Below, in pieces: positions 4,435-24,744 of a DNA stretch of 40,682 bases. The stretch is from the NCBI GenBank assembly GCA_022561635.1, contig JADFQV010000015.1, forward strand, positions 1 to 40,682. Reading direction: 5' to 3'. The translations under genes were made by a program, and so were the position numbers. This DNA is from Chloroflexota bacterium (GTDB lineage: Bacteria; Chloroflexota; Dehalococcoidia; SM23-28-2; RBG-16-64-32). The stretch's first letter is position 1. Each line of letters begins with the position of its first letter. The notes beneath the pieces were generated by a model. That model worked only from the letters and a program-made list of their open reading frames with translations, had not been told where the DNA came from and did not search any database.

Positions 4435-5406
4435 ATGAACGAGGCGAAGTCACCCTCACGGCTCACGGCAGACCGCTTGCTTCAGCTACCCATCGACCCG
4501 GAGCTGGCACTTCTATTCCCCGGACAGGGCTCGCAGAAAGTGGGCATGGGCCGGAGCGCGGCAGAATCGTCGCAGACGGCGGCCGGAACCCTCGCCGAGG
4601 CAAACGAGGCGCTGGGGTTCGATCTCTCGCACCTCTGCTTTGAGGGGCCCGAAGATCGCCTGAGAGAGACGGCCAACACCCAGCCGGCGATCCTGGCGGC
4701 ATCGGTGGCCATCCTCGCCGCGGGGCTGGACGCGGGCACGATCAAGCGCCGGCCGGCGCTGGTGGCCGGACACAGCCTGGGCGAGTATTCGGCGCTGGTC
4801 GCAGCCGGTTCGCTGGAGTTCGGCGCGGCGATGCGCCTGGTCCGTGAACGCGGGCGGCTGATGGACGAGGCCGGACAAGCGTCGCCGGGCACGATGGCGG
4901 CGATCGTCGGCCTGGACGAAGCGACGGTCGAAGGGATCTGTCGCGAGTCCGGCGCCGAGGTGGCGAACTACAACGCCGCGACACAGACAGTCGTCGGTGG
5001 CGGGCCGCAAGCCGTCGAGCGGGCGTGCGCACTGGCGAAGGAGCACGGCGGTCGCGGACTGCCGGTGAGAGTGTCGGGGGCGTTTCACACATCGCTAATG
5101 GAACCGGCGGCGAAGGCCTTCGCAGAGCTGCTGGCCGAGGCCGAAGTTGCAGAGCCGCTGATCCCGGTCGTCGGCAACGTCAGTGGCGAGACTCTGGCCT
5201 CTGCCGCGGACGTCCGCGCGGACCTGGAGCAGCAGATCAGGCGACCGGTGCGCTGGCACCAGTCGGTCGATGCTATGACCGCCGCGGGCGTACGGCGAGC
5301 CGTCGAAGTGGGGCCGGGCAAGGTGCTGACGGCGCAACTCAAGCGCAGTCACCCCAGCCTTGACGCGCGGCCGATCGAAGAGATTTCGGAGACAGCCAAT
5401 GTTTGA
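4435..5406 (+). CDS. fabD: Malonyl-CoA:ACP transacylase
   Basis: LALLFPGQGSQKVGMG, VAGHSLGEYSALVAAG, SGAFHTSLM, VGPGKVLT. Confidence 0.95.
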   Translation: MNEAKSPSRLTADRLLQLPIDPELALLFPGQGSQKVGMGRSAAESSQTAAGTLAEANEALGFDLSHLCFEGPEDRLRETANTQPAILAASVAILAAGLDAGTIKRRPALVAGHSLGEYSALVAAGSLEFGAAMRLVRERGRLMDEAGQASPGTMAAIVGLDEATVEGICRESGAEVANYNAATQTVVGGGPQAVERACALAKEHGGRGLPVRVSGAFHTSLMEPAAKAFAELLAEAEVAEPLIPVVGNVSGETLASAADVRADLEQQIRRPVRWHQSVDAMTAAGVRRAVEVGPGKVLTAQLKRSHPSLDARPIEEISETANV

Positions 5407-6145
5407 CCTGTCCGGCAAGGCAGCGTTGGTAACCGGCGGCTCGCGGGGGATTGGACGCTCGATCTGCACACAGCTCGCCGAGCAGGGCGCCGCCGTGGCG
5501 ATCAACTACAAGCAGAGCGCTGACCAGGCGGAAGACCTGCGCCAGAAGATCGAGACCGCCGGCGGCCAGGCGATCACCGTCCGTGCCGACGTGCGCAAGC
5601 CCGAAGACGTTGAGCGGATGGTTAAAGAGACGGTGGCCGGGCTGGGACGGCTCGACGTGCTGGTAAACAACGCCGGGTTCAACCGCGACACACTAATCCT
5701 GCGCATGTCGCTGGCCGACTGGGACGAAGTGATGGAGTTAAACTTGCGCGCGGTGTTTCTGTGCACGAAGGCGGTGCTGCGGACGATGATGAAGCAGCGC
5801 TGGGGCCGGGTGATAAACATCGGCAGCGTGTCAGGGCTGGCAGGCAACGTCGGGCAGGCGAACTACGCCGCGGCGAAGGCCGGGCTGGTGGGCTTTACGC
5901 GGGCCGTGGCCCGCGAGATGGGCTCGCGCAACGTGACGGCGAACCTGGTGATGCCGGGGCTGGTGATAACGGAGCTGACGAAGGACATTCGCCAAGAGAT
6001 CGTCGACGGCGTGAAGCAACGCCTGCTGGTGGACCGCATGGGGAAGCCGGAGGATATCTCGGCGTGCGTCGTCTATTTGGCGTCGGACGAAGCAGAGTAC
6101 GTCACGGGTCAGGTGCTGTCGGTGGACGGCGGGCTGGGGCTCTAG
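5399..6145 (+). CDS. fabG: 3-oxoacyl-ACP reductase
   Basis: SDR: LVTGGSRGIGRSIC, NNAGFNRD, YAAAKAGLVGFTRAVARE; ATG 5399 overlaps the fabD stop. Confidence 0.93.
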   Translation: MFDLSGKAALVTGGSRGIGRSICTQLAEQGAAVAINYKQSADQAEDLRQKIETAGGQAITVRADVRKPEDVERMVKETVAGLGRLDVLVNNAGFNRDTLILRMSLADWDEVMELNLRAVFLCTKAVLRTMMKQRWGRVINIGSVSGLAGNVGQANYAAAKAGLVGFTRAVAREMGSRNVTANLVMPGLVITELTKDIRQEIVDGVKQRLLVDRMGKPEDISACVVYLASDEAEYVTGQVLSVDGGLGL

Positions 6146-19736: not shown

Positions 19737-20918
19737 ATGAAACGCCGATACGCCGAAATCGCCGGTTGGGGGATGTATGTGCCGCCGCGCGTCGTGCCGA
19801 ACGACACGTTCGTGACGATGGGGCTGGACACGACCGACGAGTGGATCTCCTCTCGCACGGGAATCGAGCGCCGCCGCGTCGTAGGAGCGGACGAGGCGAC
19901 GTCTGACATGGCGACGAAGGCCGCGGTGCAGGCGATGGCCGTGGCCGGCCTGCACTCCGGAGACATTGACCTGGTTATCGTAGCGACGTGCACGCCGGAC
20001 CATGTGATGCCGGCAACAGCTTCCATAGTGCAGGACCGCCTGGGGATGCTGAACGCCGGCGCGATGGACTTGAACGCCGCTTGCTCTGGCTTCGTCTACG
20101 CGCTGTCCACGGGTGCGGCGCTGATTGAGTCGGGCCGCGCCAAGCACGTGCTGGTGATCGGCGCGGACGAGCTTTCGATCTACCTTGACTGGAAGGACCG
20201 CAGTACGTGCGTGCTCTTCGGAGACGGCGCGGGCGCGGTCGTGCTGAGCAGGGCGAAGGAGCCGGGGATCATGGCCTCGACGACGGGTTCGGACGGCTCA
20301 GGCGCCGGACTCCTGACGATCAAGGGAGCGTCGCGACGGCGGGCAAGCAGCAACGGCGCCCCCGGCGGATCAGCCAACGGCACTGAAGAAGCCCCGAACG
20401 GTGAGGCTACTGTCACCGAGGACGGCTACTTAACGATGAACGGCGCACAGATCTTCCGCTGGGCGACGCAGATCATGCCACGCGCGGCGGAAGAAGTGAT
20501 GGCGTCCTCCGGACTGAAGCCTGAGGATATCTCGCTGTTTATCCCGCACCAGGCCAACGATCGCATCATGAAGGCGAGCGCCAAGCGGTTGGGACTGCCA
20601 CCGGAGAAGGTTTTCTCTAACGTGCGCGAGTACGGGAACACGAGCGCAGCGTCGATCCCGATAGCGCTGTGCGAGGCGCTGAGCACCGGACGGGTGGACG
20701 TCGGGGACTATGTGGTGCTGAGCAGCTTTGGGGCCGGCCTGACATGGGCGGCGCTGGCGCTGCGCTGGTCGGTACCGATCCCCAGCCACGTGGGGCCGTG
20801 GAAGCCGATCCGGCGGCAGGTCGAGTCCCGCATGGCGGCCGTACGGTCTGTGCTGCGGCGCGGTGAACGCTCAGTGCGCACGCGGATCGATAAAACGCTC
20901 GGCAAGAGCGAAGACTAG
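19737..20918 (+). CDS. fabH: Beta-ketoacyl-ACP synthase III
   Basis: TTDEWISSRTGIERRRVV, DLNAACSGFVYALSTG, FIPHQANDRIMKASAKRLGL, YGNTSAASIPIAL, GAGLTWAALALRW. Confidence 0.92.
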   Translation: MKRRYAEIAGWGMYVPPRVVPNDTFVTMGLDTTDEWISSRTGIERRRVVGADEATSDMATKAAVQAMAVAGLHSGDIDLVIVATCTPDHVMPATASIVQDRLGMLNAGAMDLNAACSGFVYALSTGAALIESGRAKHVLVIGADELSIYLDWKDRSTCVLFGDGAGAVVLSRAKEPGIMASTTGSDGSGAGLLTIKGASRRRASSNGAPGGSANGTEEAPNGEATVTEDGYLTMNGAQIFRWATQIMPRAAEEVMASSGLKPEDISLFIPHQANDRIMKASAKRLGLPPEKVFSNVREYGNTSAASIPIALCEALSTGRVDVGDYVVLSSFGAGLTWAALALRWSVPIPSHVGPWKPIRRQVESRMAAVRSVLRRGERSVRTRIDKTLGKSED

Positions 20919-23065
20919 CGCTTGCGCGCGGCAAACTCTTTGTGGCCGCCCCACTTGTGCAGGAAGCGGTAGAAGTTGCGCTTGCTCAGGCGCTCGCGCT
21001 CGTCAGGGGGCGTTGCCAGCCACTCAACGTGGTCGTGACGAATGACGGGCAGGTCTGTGTCGATGACGGCGCGGTAGCCGTGGCTGCGGATGGCGTAGCT
21101 GAAGTCGAGGTCAAGGTGCCGATAGAAGCGGAATTTTTCGTCCAGCAGGCCGACCTTTCGGAGCACGTCGCGGCGGAACGCCATGAGATAGCCCTCAACC
21201 GCGTCGACATCGCCGGACGACTCCGCTTCGTCGAAGCTGCGCATATCGTCGGTGACGACGCCCCAGCGGCCGGCGACGCCGATCGTCTCGTCCTCGAGTA
21301 GCGGGCGGAGCGCGGCGAAGAGATCGCCCGTAACCTCGACGCTGGTGTCGAGGATGACGAGGCAGCGGCCGCGCGCCTGGCGAAGCGCCACGTTGCGGCC
21401 GGCAGCGCTGCCCAGGAAGTGGTCGGCACGGAAGAAGCGCAGCTGCTCGTCGTCAGCCGTGGCATCGTCCCCCAGCGGCTCGCACTCCTCCACGAAGCCG
21501 TTGTCGACCACGATCACCTCGCCCGCGTCGCCGAGCCAGGCCCGGGCCGAAGAGACACAGCGCTGAAGCTCCTCACAGCCGCGCCGGGCGACGATAGCGA
21601 CCGTGAAGTCGAGGTCTGGGGTCTCGTCCAGGCGCGAGCTGACGTCCGCGCTGGAAGCAAGGTTGCCGTCGTCGTGCTTCCAGGCCGGGATCGGCAGCAC
21701 GGTGGTGCCAGGCCGGTCGTCGCGCACCTCCAGCCCCATGTCGGTGATGCGATCGCGGATGCCATCGGCGGCGCCCCAGTGGCTGGCCCTGCGGTGTTCG
21801 TGGCGCTCACGTATCAGTTTGGCAACCTCGTCGGTCACTGGCGGCACGGGTGGCGCCGTGGCCAGATCGAGACCGAGGAGGCGGTCGAAGTCCATGAGCA
21901 GCTCTCGCTTGATGGCGCCGGGCAGACGTGAGCGGGCGACGCTCCAGGCGACGGCGAGGGCGGCCGGGATGTTGAGACCGTCGCGGGCGGCGGCCCAGAA
22001 GGCGGCGCGCAGCTTGTCGCCCTCGGCGCGGGCCTTCTTGGTCAGGCGGCCGCTGGGGCCGTGCGTGGCGGCGCGCAGGCGGTTGAGGCCGCGCTGGGCG
22101 GCGCGAAGGGAAGACGGTGTGAAGTTGAGGCGCGTCCCGTAGTGGGCGTTGGCGCAGAGGTAGCGGAAAGCGAGCGGGTCGAAGCCGCGGCGCTGGAGGT
22201 CTGAGATGAGGTAGACGTTGCCGGTGGACTTGGCCATCTTGACGCCGTCGACGAGCAGGTGCTGGCCGTGCACCCAGCGACGGACGTGCTGATGGCCGAG
22301 TACAGACTCGCTCTGGGCGATCTCATCCTCGTGGTGCGGGAAGATGTTGTCGACGCCGCCGGTATGGAAGTCGATCTCGTCGCCCAGAACCGAGGCGACG
22401 ATGGCGGAGCATTCAATGTGCCAGCCGGGGAAGCCGTCGCCCCAGGGGCTCTCCCATTTCAGCGCGCGGCCGGGCTCGGCGGCCTTCCAGAGGGCGAAGT
22501 CGCGAGGGTCGCGCTTGAGCGGGTCGGGTTCGGCCCGGTCGCCCTCCTGCAGGTCTTCCGACTGCTGATGAGAGAGCTTGCCGTAGCCGGGAAAGCTGCC
22601 GACGCTGAAGTAGACGTTGCCGCCGGCCTCGTAGGCGCAGGAGGAGTCGACGAGCGCTTTCACCATCTCGACCATCGCCGGGACGTACTCTGTCGCCTTC
22701 GGGAAGTCGCCGGCGGGAAGGATGTTCAGCTTCGCCTCGTCTTCGAGGAAGGCGTCGGTGTAAAAGCGGGCGATCTCCGCGGCCGGCTTGCCTTCAGCGC
22801 GGGCGGCGACGATGATCCGGTCCTCTTCTTGAGCGAGCTGGCCCGCGCGCATGTGGCCGACGTCTGTGATGTTCTTGACGTGGTGCACTGTGTATCCATC
22901 CGCTTCCAGCAGGCGGCGCAGCCAGTCTGCCATGAGGTACGAGCGCAGGTTGCCGATGTGGGCGTAGCGGTAGACGGTGGGCCCGCACGAGTAGAGGCTG
23001 ACGTGCCCCGATTGAAGCGGAGCAAACTCCTCTTTCTTGCGGGTCAGCGTGTCGTAAATGCGCAT
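20915..23065 (-). CDS. cysS: Cysteinyl-tRNA synthetase fused to C-terminal family-2 glycosyltransferase (about 716 aa)
   Basis: CysRS: MRIYDTLTRKKEEFAPL...SCGPTVYRYAHIGNLRSYLMADWLRR, GWHIECSAI, HTGGVDNIFPHHEDEIAQSE, KMAKSTGN, C-terminal AADGIRDRITDMGLEVRDDRPGT. GT2: DFTVAIVARRGCEELQRCVSSARAWLGDAGEVIVVDNG...GSAAGRNVALRQARGRCLVILDTS...VEGYLMAFRRDVLRKVGLLDEKFRFYRHLDLDFSYAIRSHGYR. One frame, no internal stop. Confidence 0.9.
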   Translation of the reverse strand: MRIYDTLTRKKEEFAPLQSGHVSLYSCGPTVYRYAHIGNLRSYLMADWLRRLLEADGYTVHHVKNITDVGHMRAGQLAQEEDRIIVAARAEGKPAAEIARFYTDAFLEDEAKLNILPAGDFPKATEYVPAMVEMVKALVDSSCAYEAGGNVYFSVGSFPGYGKLSHQQSEDLQEGDRAEPDPLKRDPRDFALWKAAEPGRALKWESPWGDGFPGWHIECSAIVASVLGDEIDFHTGGVDNIFPHHEDEIAQSESVLGHQHVRRWVHGQHLLVDGVKMAKSTGNVYLISDLQRRGFDPLAFRYLCANAHYGTRLNFTPSSLRAAQRGLNRLRAATHGPSGRLTKKARAEGDKLRAAFWAAARDGLNIPAALAVAWSVARSRLPGAIKRELLMDFDRLLGLDLATAPPVPPVTDEVAKLIRERHEHRRASHWGAADGIRDRITDMGLEVRDDRPGTTVLPIPAWKHDDGNLASSADVSSRLDETPDLDFTVAIVARRGCEELQRCVSSARAWLGDAGEVIVVDNGFVEECEPLGDDATADDEQLRFFRADHFLGSAAGRNVALRQARGRCLVILDTSVEVTGDLFAALRPLLEDETIGVAGRWGVVTDDMRSFDEAESSGDVDAVEGYLMAFRRDVLRKVGLLDEKFRFYRHLDLDFSYAIRSHGYRAVIDTDLPVIRHDHVEWLATPPDERERLSKRNFYRFLHKWGGHKEFAARKR

Positions 23066-23108: not shown

Positions 23109-23339
23109 TCAACCGTGTTCGCCGTCCCACCCCAGTTCGACGCGGCCGTCCTCCCAAATGATGATGGGGACAGCCATGGCGTAGTCGAGCGCCTCTTCCC
23201 ACCAGTCGGCGTTCTCGTCCACGCGGCGCTCTTCGAAGTCGACTCCACGGTCGCGGAGAGCGACGAGGGCCTTGTCGCTGACTTCGCAGTTTTTCAGGGT
23301 GTAGACGGTGACGGACACGGGCGATTCCTTCCGGGACAA
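23109..23339 (-). CDS. Glutaredoxin-like protein with single active-site Cys (CEVS)
   Basis: VTVYTLKNCEVSDKALVALRDRGVDFEERRVDEN...AVPIIIWEDGRVELGW; thioredoxin-fold order with cis-Pro-like VP. Confidence 0.75.
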   Translation of the reverse strand: MSRKESPVSVTVYTLKNCEVSDKALVALRDRGVDFEERRVDENADWWEEALDYAMAVPIIIWEDGRVELGWDGEHG

Positions 23340-23352
23340 TCTTAGCAGGCCA

Positions 23353-24744
23353 TCAGACCTTCATGTGCTTCCATTTGCCCCGACGGAACCTGAAAAACAT
23401 GATCGCGGCCCGAACGTTGATGTCGGCGATGGCGGCCAGCCAGGCGCCCGGTACCCCCAGACCGAAGGTGATCGCCAGGAGGTAGGCAGGGATGAGCCGC
23501 ACGATCCACGTACAGCCAGCCATTATGTAAAGAACGGCGCGGGTGTCGCCGGCCCCGCGCAGGCTGCCCGACAGCGAGAGGCTGATGGCGAGGCCTGGCA
23601 GCGCGAAGGCGAAGATAAACATCGTCTGGCGAGCGATGTCGACCACGGCGTCTGAGTTCTCGCCGCCGACGAAGATGGAGGTGATCTGGCCGCCGAGAGT
23701 CATGAGGATGACGGCGACCACACTCATGAACACAAGCGAATAGCGCATCGTCATGTAGGAGGCCTTCTCGGCGAGGTCCGGGCGCTTGGCGCCCAACGTT
23801 TGGCCGACGATCGCCGAGGTCGCAATACTGAGCGCGAAGCCGATGTTGAAGGTGAGCGTCTGCATCGCCAGTGTGACGCCGTGGGCGGCCAGCGCCGTCG
23901 TGCCGAGCGAGGCGATGATGCGCGTGTAGATCATGAAGGCGACGTTGAACTGCGCCTGCTCCAGGCCCGCGGGCACACCAACGTTGAGGATGCGCCCAGC
24001 ATCAGCACGGTTGAAAGCGCCCCCCCGGAAGGGGATCCAGCTGAGCGAACGGCGACCGGACATGAGCACGCCGGCGACGAGGACGGCGCCGACCATGCCG
24101 GCGATCGTGAAGCCGACCCCGGAGCCCAGCACTTCCAGCTCCGGGAACGGGCCCGAGCCGTTGATCAGGACGAAAGAAGCGAAAGCGTTGACGACGTTGA
24201 TCAGCAGGCCGACGACCATCGGTGAGCGGGTGTCGCCGGCGCCCTGCTGGGCGGCGTTGCCGGCGAAGACGAAGGAGAAGAACGGCAGGCCGAAGGCGAG
24301 CCCATGCAGGTAGTCGGTGCCTTCAGCCTGGGCCGCGGGTTCGGCGCCGAGCACGCCCAGCATCCAGCCGCCGAAGACCAGCATCAAGACCATCATGATC
24401 AGGCCCCAGACGACGGCCAGCACGAGTATCGTCTGCATGACCTTCGAGGCGTCGCGGGACTCGCCGCTGCCGACGAGTCGGGCGACAACAGCCGTGGCGC
24501 CAACGCCGATGGCGATCATGCCGCTCATGGAGAGCCAGAGCAGGAGGCCGGCCAGGCGCACGCCGGCGAGCGCGTCTTCGCCCAGGTGACCGACGAGCGC
24601 GGTGTCTACGAGCTGGACCATGGCGAAGCTCGCCTGCTGGACGACGACCGGCCAGGCCAGTCGAATGATCGAACCGCGGAGGTCCTTCTCGTCGATCAGC
24701 GCCGGGGCAGCGTTAGCGGGGGACCGAGAAGAGTCGTCAGACAT
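23353..24744 (-). CDS. MATE family efflux transporter
   Basis: RLAWPVVVQQASFAMVQLVDTALVGHLGEDALAGVRLA...GAGDTRSPMVVGLLINVVNAFASFVLING; about 12 TM segments. Confidence 0.92.
   Translation of the reverse strand: MSDDSSRSPANAAPALIDEKDLRGSIIRLAWPVVVQQASFAMVQLVDTALVGHLGEDALAGVRLAGLLLWLSMSGMIAIGVGATAVVARLVGSGESRDASKVMQTILVLAVVWGLIMMVLMLVFGGWMLGVLGAEPAAQAEGTDYLHGLAFGLPFFSFVFAGNAAQQGAGDTRSPMVVGLLINVVNAFASFVLINGSGPFPELEVLGSGVGFTIAGMVGAVLVAGVLMSGRRSLSWIPFRGGAFNRADAGRILNVGVPAGLEQAQFNVAFMIYTRIIASLGTTALAAHGVTLAMQTLTFNIGFALSIATSAIVGQTLGAKRPDLAEKASYMTMRYSLVFMSVVAVILMTLGGQITSIFVGGENSDAVVDIARQTMFIFAFALPGLAISLSLSGSLRGAGDTRAVLYIMAGCTWIVRLIPAYLLAITFGLGVPGAWLAAIADINVRAAIMFFRFRRGKWKHMKV

Follow-up and report, generated by a model that had tools for sequence, protein, structure and literature searches.

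A cysteinyl-tRNA synthetase paralogue fused to a GT2-family glycosyltransferase in Chloroflexota, a candidate tRNA(Cys)-directed enzyme

What would a cysteinyl-tRNA synthetase (CysRS) do with a glycosyltransferase (GT) at its C-terminus? This question is raised by a gene in a 40,682-nucleotide contig of a Chloroflexota bacterium (the whole stretch analyzed, hereafter the window), which the initial annotation had read as an in-frame fusion of CysRS to a family 2 glycosyltransferase (GT2). A single 716-aa open frame was found on the minus strand at 20915-23065, all motifs quoted in that annotation were recovered in its translation, and the following features were defined.

20915-23065, minus strand: CysRS-CysS_C-GT2 fusion gene, 716 aa plus stop, an open frame from ATG at 23065 to the stop at 20915-20917
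22094-23026, minus strand: CysRS catalytic domain (PF01406), aa 14-324, E 1.4e-95 (Pfam)
21713-21844, minus strand: CysS_C (PF23493) anticodon-binding hairpin, aa 408-451, 26 bits versus a cut-off of 23 (Pfam)
21617-21700, minus strand: linker from CysS_C to the GT with a conserved SSxDVxS motif (alignments); pLDDT is lower here in the model
20918-21616, minus strand: GT-A/GT2 domain (PF00535; Pfam aa 489-613, 42.3 bits versus a cut-off of 23.3; AlphaFold model)
21341-21352, minus strand: LDTS at the DxD position of the GT (active-site readout, aligned family members)
21110-21112, minus strand: Asp652 (FYRHLDLD), putative catalytic base, assigned by motif and found in 95 of 97 family members

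The convergent KAS III gene (19737-20918, plus strand) shares four bases (20915-20918) with the fusion gene at the stop codons.

Composition of the fusion protein

The CysRS half, previously judged complete by its motifs, scored 416 bits against the TIGR00435 cysS equivalog cut-off of 340, and the CGPTV, HIGN, WHIEC, HHEDE and KMAKS motifs are all present in addition to CysS_C. Among 41 aligned homologous fusions, the Zn-ligand positions are invariant and the HIGH/KMSKS-type signature motifs are invariant or nearly so. The protein therefore has the same catalytic, Zn, HIGH/KMSKS and anticodon-binding elements as the ordinary CysRS described by TIGR00435, from which it differs in being a paralogue in most carriers and in having a C-terminal GT2 domain.

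The GT-A/GT2 features proposed for the C-terminal part were also borne out: PF00535 matched above its cut-off, and the nearest PDB structures to the AlphaFold model (pLDDT 90) are GT-A enzymes, namely polypeptide GalNAc-transferases, WrtF and AvpGT, so that the fold as modelled is GT-A. At the active site, R632, N697, G552 and N558 are nearly invariant over the 97 proteins. The first Asp of the DxD is kept in most family members; the second is never among the common residues, being replaced by S, N, G, H or C, and the window has DxS. In addition, the nucleotide-binding (NDP) Asp521 is lost, with Ala in its place, in 11 of the 20 proteins outside Ktedonobacteria that have the GT without a synthetase (standalone proteins, described below). 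Sugar transfer is uncertain because of these two replacements, and catalysis by the GT appears plausible but unconventional from the aligned residues.

The fusion is widespread in Chloroflexota

The fusion is real, old and widespread in Chloroflexota. Its intact architecture occurs in about 60 distinct loci, Thermogemmatispora isolates included, and homologues with the same two domains were recovered across the order and the phylum. Within the set of 60 relatives and the own genome, full or near-full fusions were found across the whole family, as well as in three other families of its order and three additional families of the class; most of the genomes searched in this order contain the two-part ORF, 49-95% identical over its full length or nearly so. 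Scanning GTDB genomes with the GT half, by an exact-peptide search that gives a lower bound, identified at least 56 loci, mostly in Chloroflexota and again including Thermogemmatispora isolates, while the GT unit was found in about 124 of 400 Chloroflexota genomes (E <= 1e-30; counted by hand from the match listing). Matches in MAGs beyond the phylum, one in Nitrospinota (L096) and one in Actinobacteria (L121), may reflect transfer or mis-binning, and a plasmid search reported one record with at least 80% query coverage. The Thermogemmatispora fusions (L101:3540-5942) carry a histidine-rich C-terminal tail (GHDHPYHLEGTHSH...).

An assembly artefact at the junction, considered in the initial annotation, is rejected because the identical ORF architecture is present in isolates and in dozens of independent MAGs. 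The frame is broken once in each of three MAG loci (G003, G006 and G018, the last, L054, between aa 501 and 538), and in none of these three were clean separate genes for the two halves seen. Both halves are under purifying selection, with pairwise dN/dS among close relatives of 0.05-0.24 for the CysRS and 0.08-0.21 for the GT. A CysRS tree of 106 rows placed every fusion in one clade (SH-aLRT 98); three unlabelled rows within it correspond to a copy at a contig end and two copies with frame breaks. Near this clade, in a branching order drawn open, are the ordinary CysRS of Ktedonobacteria, the second CysRS of soil Chloroflexi that have a standalone GT, and one gene of genome G039; the latter genome has two unfused CysRS genes in tandem (L053:3075-4439 and 4448-5830), the second being nearer the fusion clade. 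The initial remark that a characterized CysRS-GT2 fusion was not known to the annotator agrees with our search of the open literature, in which no description of a CysRS-GT fusion or of a [CysS_C]-[GT2] protein was found.

A synthetase paralogue and a hairpin-glycosyltransferase unit

The suggestion that the GT is tethered to a housekeeping synthetase probably does not hold. A second cysS was found: most fusion carriers among the relatives searched have an ordinary, separate CysRS, and the own genome (84% complete) has a CysRS fragment at a contig edge (C22:259-687, matching CysRS residues 318-454). A housekeeping cysS with a GT tail is thus rejected for the relatives, the corresponding evidence in the own genome being the contig-edge fragment, and the fusion is probably a paralogous CysRS, as judged from sequence. 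Many fusion-bearing genomes also have an MshC-like paralogue. That of the own genome (G000:C25:15074-16279; L001, L066) is unfused, scored 356 bits for TIGR03447, below the cut-off of 485, and also passed the TIGR00435 cut-off; no mycothiol genes were recognized in its immediate neighbourhood. At about 390-430 aa the MshC-like paralogues are too short to carry CysS_C, which was not detected in the one scanned; if they work as MshC does, they would require no tRNA.

The GT domain was also found without the CysRS catalytic domain in Chloroflexota, and in 32 of 32 such standalone proteins the CysS_C hairpin lies N-terminal to it. These genes, typically of about 290-370 aa, occur in Ktedonobacteraceae and in four other families (f65, f72, f75 and f77), and several Ktedonobacteraceae have a full fusion at another genomic locus as well. 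Genome G358, a single contig of 11.3 Mb, contains a standalone unit but no fusion, alongside a CysRS of 478 aa and an MshC-sized paralogue of 397 aa; G289 and G380 each have a standalone unit and one CysRS, with no fused CysRS. This indicates that the GT unit is independent of a fused catalytic domain. Judging from these alignments, the hairpin is common to nearly all architectures (among fused proteins, L117 is without CysS_C, and L223, L225 and L226 have a shortened one), and the synthetase catalytic domain is present in some architectures only. Since every standalone GT keeps CysS_C, the conserved unit is [tRNA-Cys anticodon-binding hairpin]-[GT2], and its existence makes tRNA(Cys), and not free cysteine, the likelier target. 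The GT tree is unrooted and compatible with either gain or loss of the catalytic domain.

Six of the 50 hairpin columns are invariant in the 32 standalone proteins (E. coli CysRS R423, R427, A435, D436, G446 and D451), and each of these proteins has an aromatic residue at position 432; these counts were taken from an unbiased alignment, a regular-expression search for the hairpin having favoured the motif. R423, R427, W432, D436 and D451 correspond to R421, R425, W430, D434 and D449 in the window, and equivalents of R427, D436 and D451 were found in 61 of 62 fused proteins. We take the conserved positions to include anticodon contacts of the E. coli CysRS-tRNA complex (1U0B); residue-level CysRS anticodon contacts were not found in the open literature searched. 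Ordinary CysRSs keep the identical positions, so conservation does not separate folding from tRNA binding, and the conserved residues may have a structural role. In three pairs of standalone proteins, CysS_C has a dN/dS of 0-0.05. Pfam matched CysS_C in five standalone proteins, with a score above the cut-off for L214 and below it for the other four. Across 23 genomes, all matches above the cut-off fell in CysRS, CysRS-GT or CysS_C-GT genes, the gene type being judged by ORF length and position, which is not the distribution expected of a promiscuous linker.

One ordinary tRNA-Cys gene was found in the own genome, with a GCA anticodon, A37 and U73, of which GCA and U73 are known CysRS identity elements (PMC9976931). 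A dedicated second tRNA-Cys was not seen with a single search pattern that could miss variants, and most genomes had one tRNA-Cys. Three genomes gave two pattern matches: G074 has two tRNA-Cys genes according to ARAGORN, and the second match in G358 and in G084 is not a tRNA.

A candidate tRNA(Cys)-directed enzyme and competing explanations

The fusion, its conservation, the ordinary CysRS alongside in most carriers and the retention of the anticodon-recognition positions are shown by the sequences, and the GT-A fold by the model. The reading that we prefer, with a probability of roughly 0.4, is a tRNA(Cys)-directed [CysS_C]-[GT2] enzyme that in many lineages is fused to a dedicated CysRS paralogue. 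Its functional core would be [CysS_C]-[GT2], with the hairpin gripping the GCA anticodon of tRNA(Cys). The GT-A domain follows the hairpin by about 30 residues, which would place it near the anticodon arm, and may act on tRNA(Cys), most likely at this arm, or on its cargo; tRNA binding, the site acted on and the transfer of a sugar are what we infer. In many lineages, including that of the window, joining this core to a dedicated CysRS duplicate would bring charging and the second reaction onto one polypeptide. More tentatively, these proteins could be a widespread and so far undescribed family of RNA-directed glycosyltransferases of Chloroflexota, in which the CysRS hairpin finds tRNA(Cys), a sugar is put onto the tRNA or its cysteine, and, in many lineages, fusion to a private CysRS couples the reaction to charging.

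ErdS, a synthetase relative, is fused to DUF2156. The partner in the window is a PF00535 GT-A domain and not an MprF/DUF2156 lipid aminoacyl-transferase, so the protein differs both from LysX (LysRS-MprF), in which the synthetase carries a fused second enzyme whose substrate is the aminoacyl-tRNA made by LysX, and from ErdS, an AspRS paralogue with a lipid product (PMC9437257). CysRS* of Desulfobacterales, a second CysRS devoid of the anticodon-binding domain and partnered with a special tRNA (PMC9437257), differs from the fusion, which keeps this domain in genomes where mostly one ordinary tRNA-Cys was found. Also related in concept are GluQ-RS (YadB), a synthetase-derived anticodon modifier (PMC9437257), and QTMAN/QTGAL, which add a sugar to an anticodon nucleoside (PMC12518689), although these act on different tRNAs and have a different protein architecture. 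None of the conceptual relatives LysX, MshC and GluQ-RS has a glycosyltransferase; MshC and GluQ-RS are synthetase relatives whose roles lie outside translation (PMC9437257).

Best placed among the alternatives, if still unlikely, is a GT that is dead or regulatory, serving as a nucleotide-sugar sensor or scaffold that tunes a second CysRS under certain conditions. The DxD, degenerate throughout the family, and the loss of Asp521 in some members are in its favour; the near invariance of D652, R632, N697, G552 and N558, together with low dN/dS, argues against it, and in the standalone form there is no synthetase on the same polypeptide that could be regulated.

The genes beside the fusion bear on another alternative. 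Two neighbours were conserved on the 5′ side.

23109-23318, minus strand: 69-aa glutaredoxin-like gene, directly 5′ of the fusion, a conserved neighbour in Dehalococcoidia fusion loci
23353-24744, minus strand: MATE transporter, a conserved 5′ neighbour in related genomes

The glutaredoxin-like protein has CEVS and not CPxC at its active site; CPTC, CPTS and CEVS occur in relatives, with the gene order kept. In other Chloroflexota groups, a gene recognized by eye as S51 peptidase/cyanophycinase-like directly adjoins the fusion (L052:8225-8944, L206:2528-3211, L226:4045-4698 and five other loci), so that the conserved neighbours depend on the class, being glutaredoxin in Dehalococcoidia and the S51-like peptidase in other classes. 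No tRNA-modification gene was recognized among the conserved neighbours of the fusion and standalone loci examined. The glutaredoxin and S51-like genes hint at thiol or peptide metabolism and thereby keep alive the initial idea of coupling cysteine activation to sugar chemistry, in which Cys would be activated by the CysRS half and a sugar acceptor provided or consumed by the GT half, yielding a mycothiol-like thiol or a cysteinyl-glycoconjugate. MshC, a CysRS relative that ligates Cys to an amino sugar, is a precedent (PMC9437257). The idea survives as an improbable alternative; identity with MshC does not, since the fusion scored 223 bits against the TIGR03447 cut-off of 485 and, unlike MshC, retains an anticodon-binding domain. 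Many of these genomes already have the separate MshC-like gene, beside which mycothiol genes were not recognized locally, and the GT unit exists without a fused Cys-activating domain.

Slightly less credible still is an auxiliary CysRS with an incidental GT that makes ordinary surface glycans, the standalone CysS_C being a relic left by loss of the catalytic domain. Auxiliary synthetase duplicates have precedents (PMC9437257), such a loss is compatible with the unrooted GT tree, and a mannose-1-phosphate guanylyltransferase-like gene adjoins two standalone copies; yet a relic would be expected to decay, while the recognition positions of CysS_C are invariant with the low dN/dS given above, and the neighbourhoods examined contain no obvious glycan clusters. 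The guanylyltransferase-like gene, recognized by eye, lies upstream of standalone CysS_C-GT genes (L107:3287-4351 and its counterpart in L110) and is a possible hint at GDP-mannose as donor. The least probable explanation, that the GT takes as its substrate the cysteine already attached to tRNA(Cys) and alters it, perhaps by S-glycosylation, ahead of its use elsewhere, would account for the CysRS fusion and the conserved tRNA-gripping positions, but no downstream user gene was identified in the neighbourhoods examined, and in the known CysRS complex a long distance separates the acceptor end from the anticodon.

Chemistry outside translation, including lipid aminoacylation, mycothiol and modified queuosine, has come to light repeatedly through fused or duplicated synthetases. 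The near-constant association of this GT with the hairpin that binds the tRNA-Cys anticodon points to an enzyme, so far undescribed, that acts on cysteine tRNA. If the preferred, tRNA(Cys)-directed reading is true, it would mean that bacteria glycosylate a tRNA or couple a sugar reaction to Cys-tRNA, either of which would be directly testable in cultured Thermogemmatispora.
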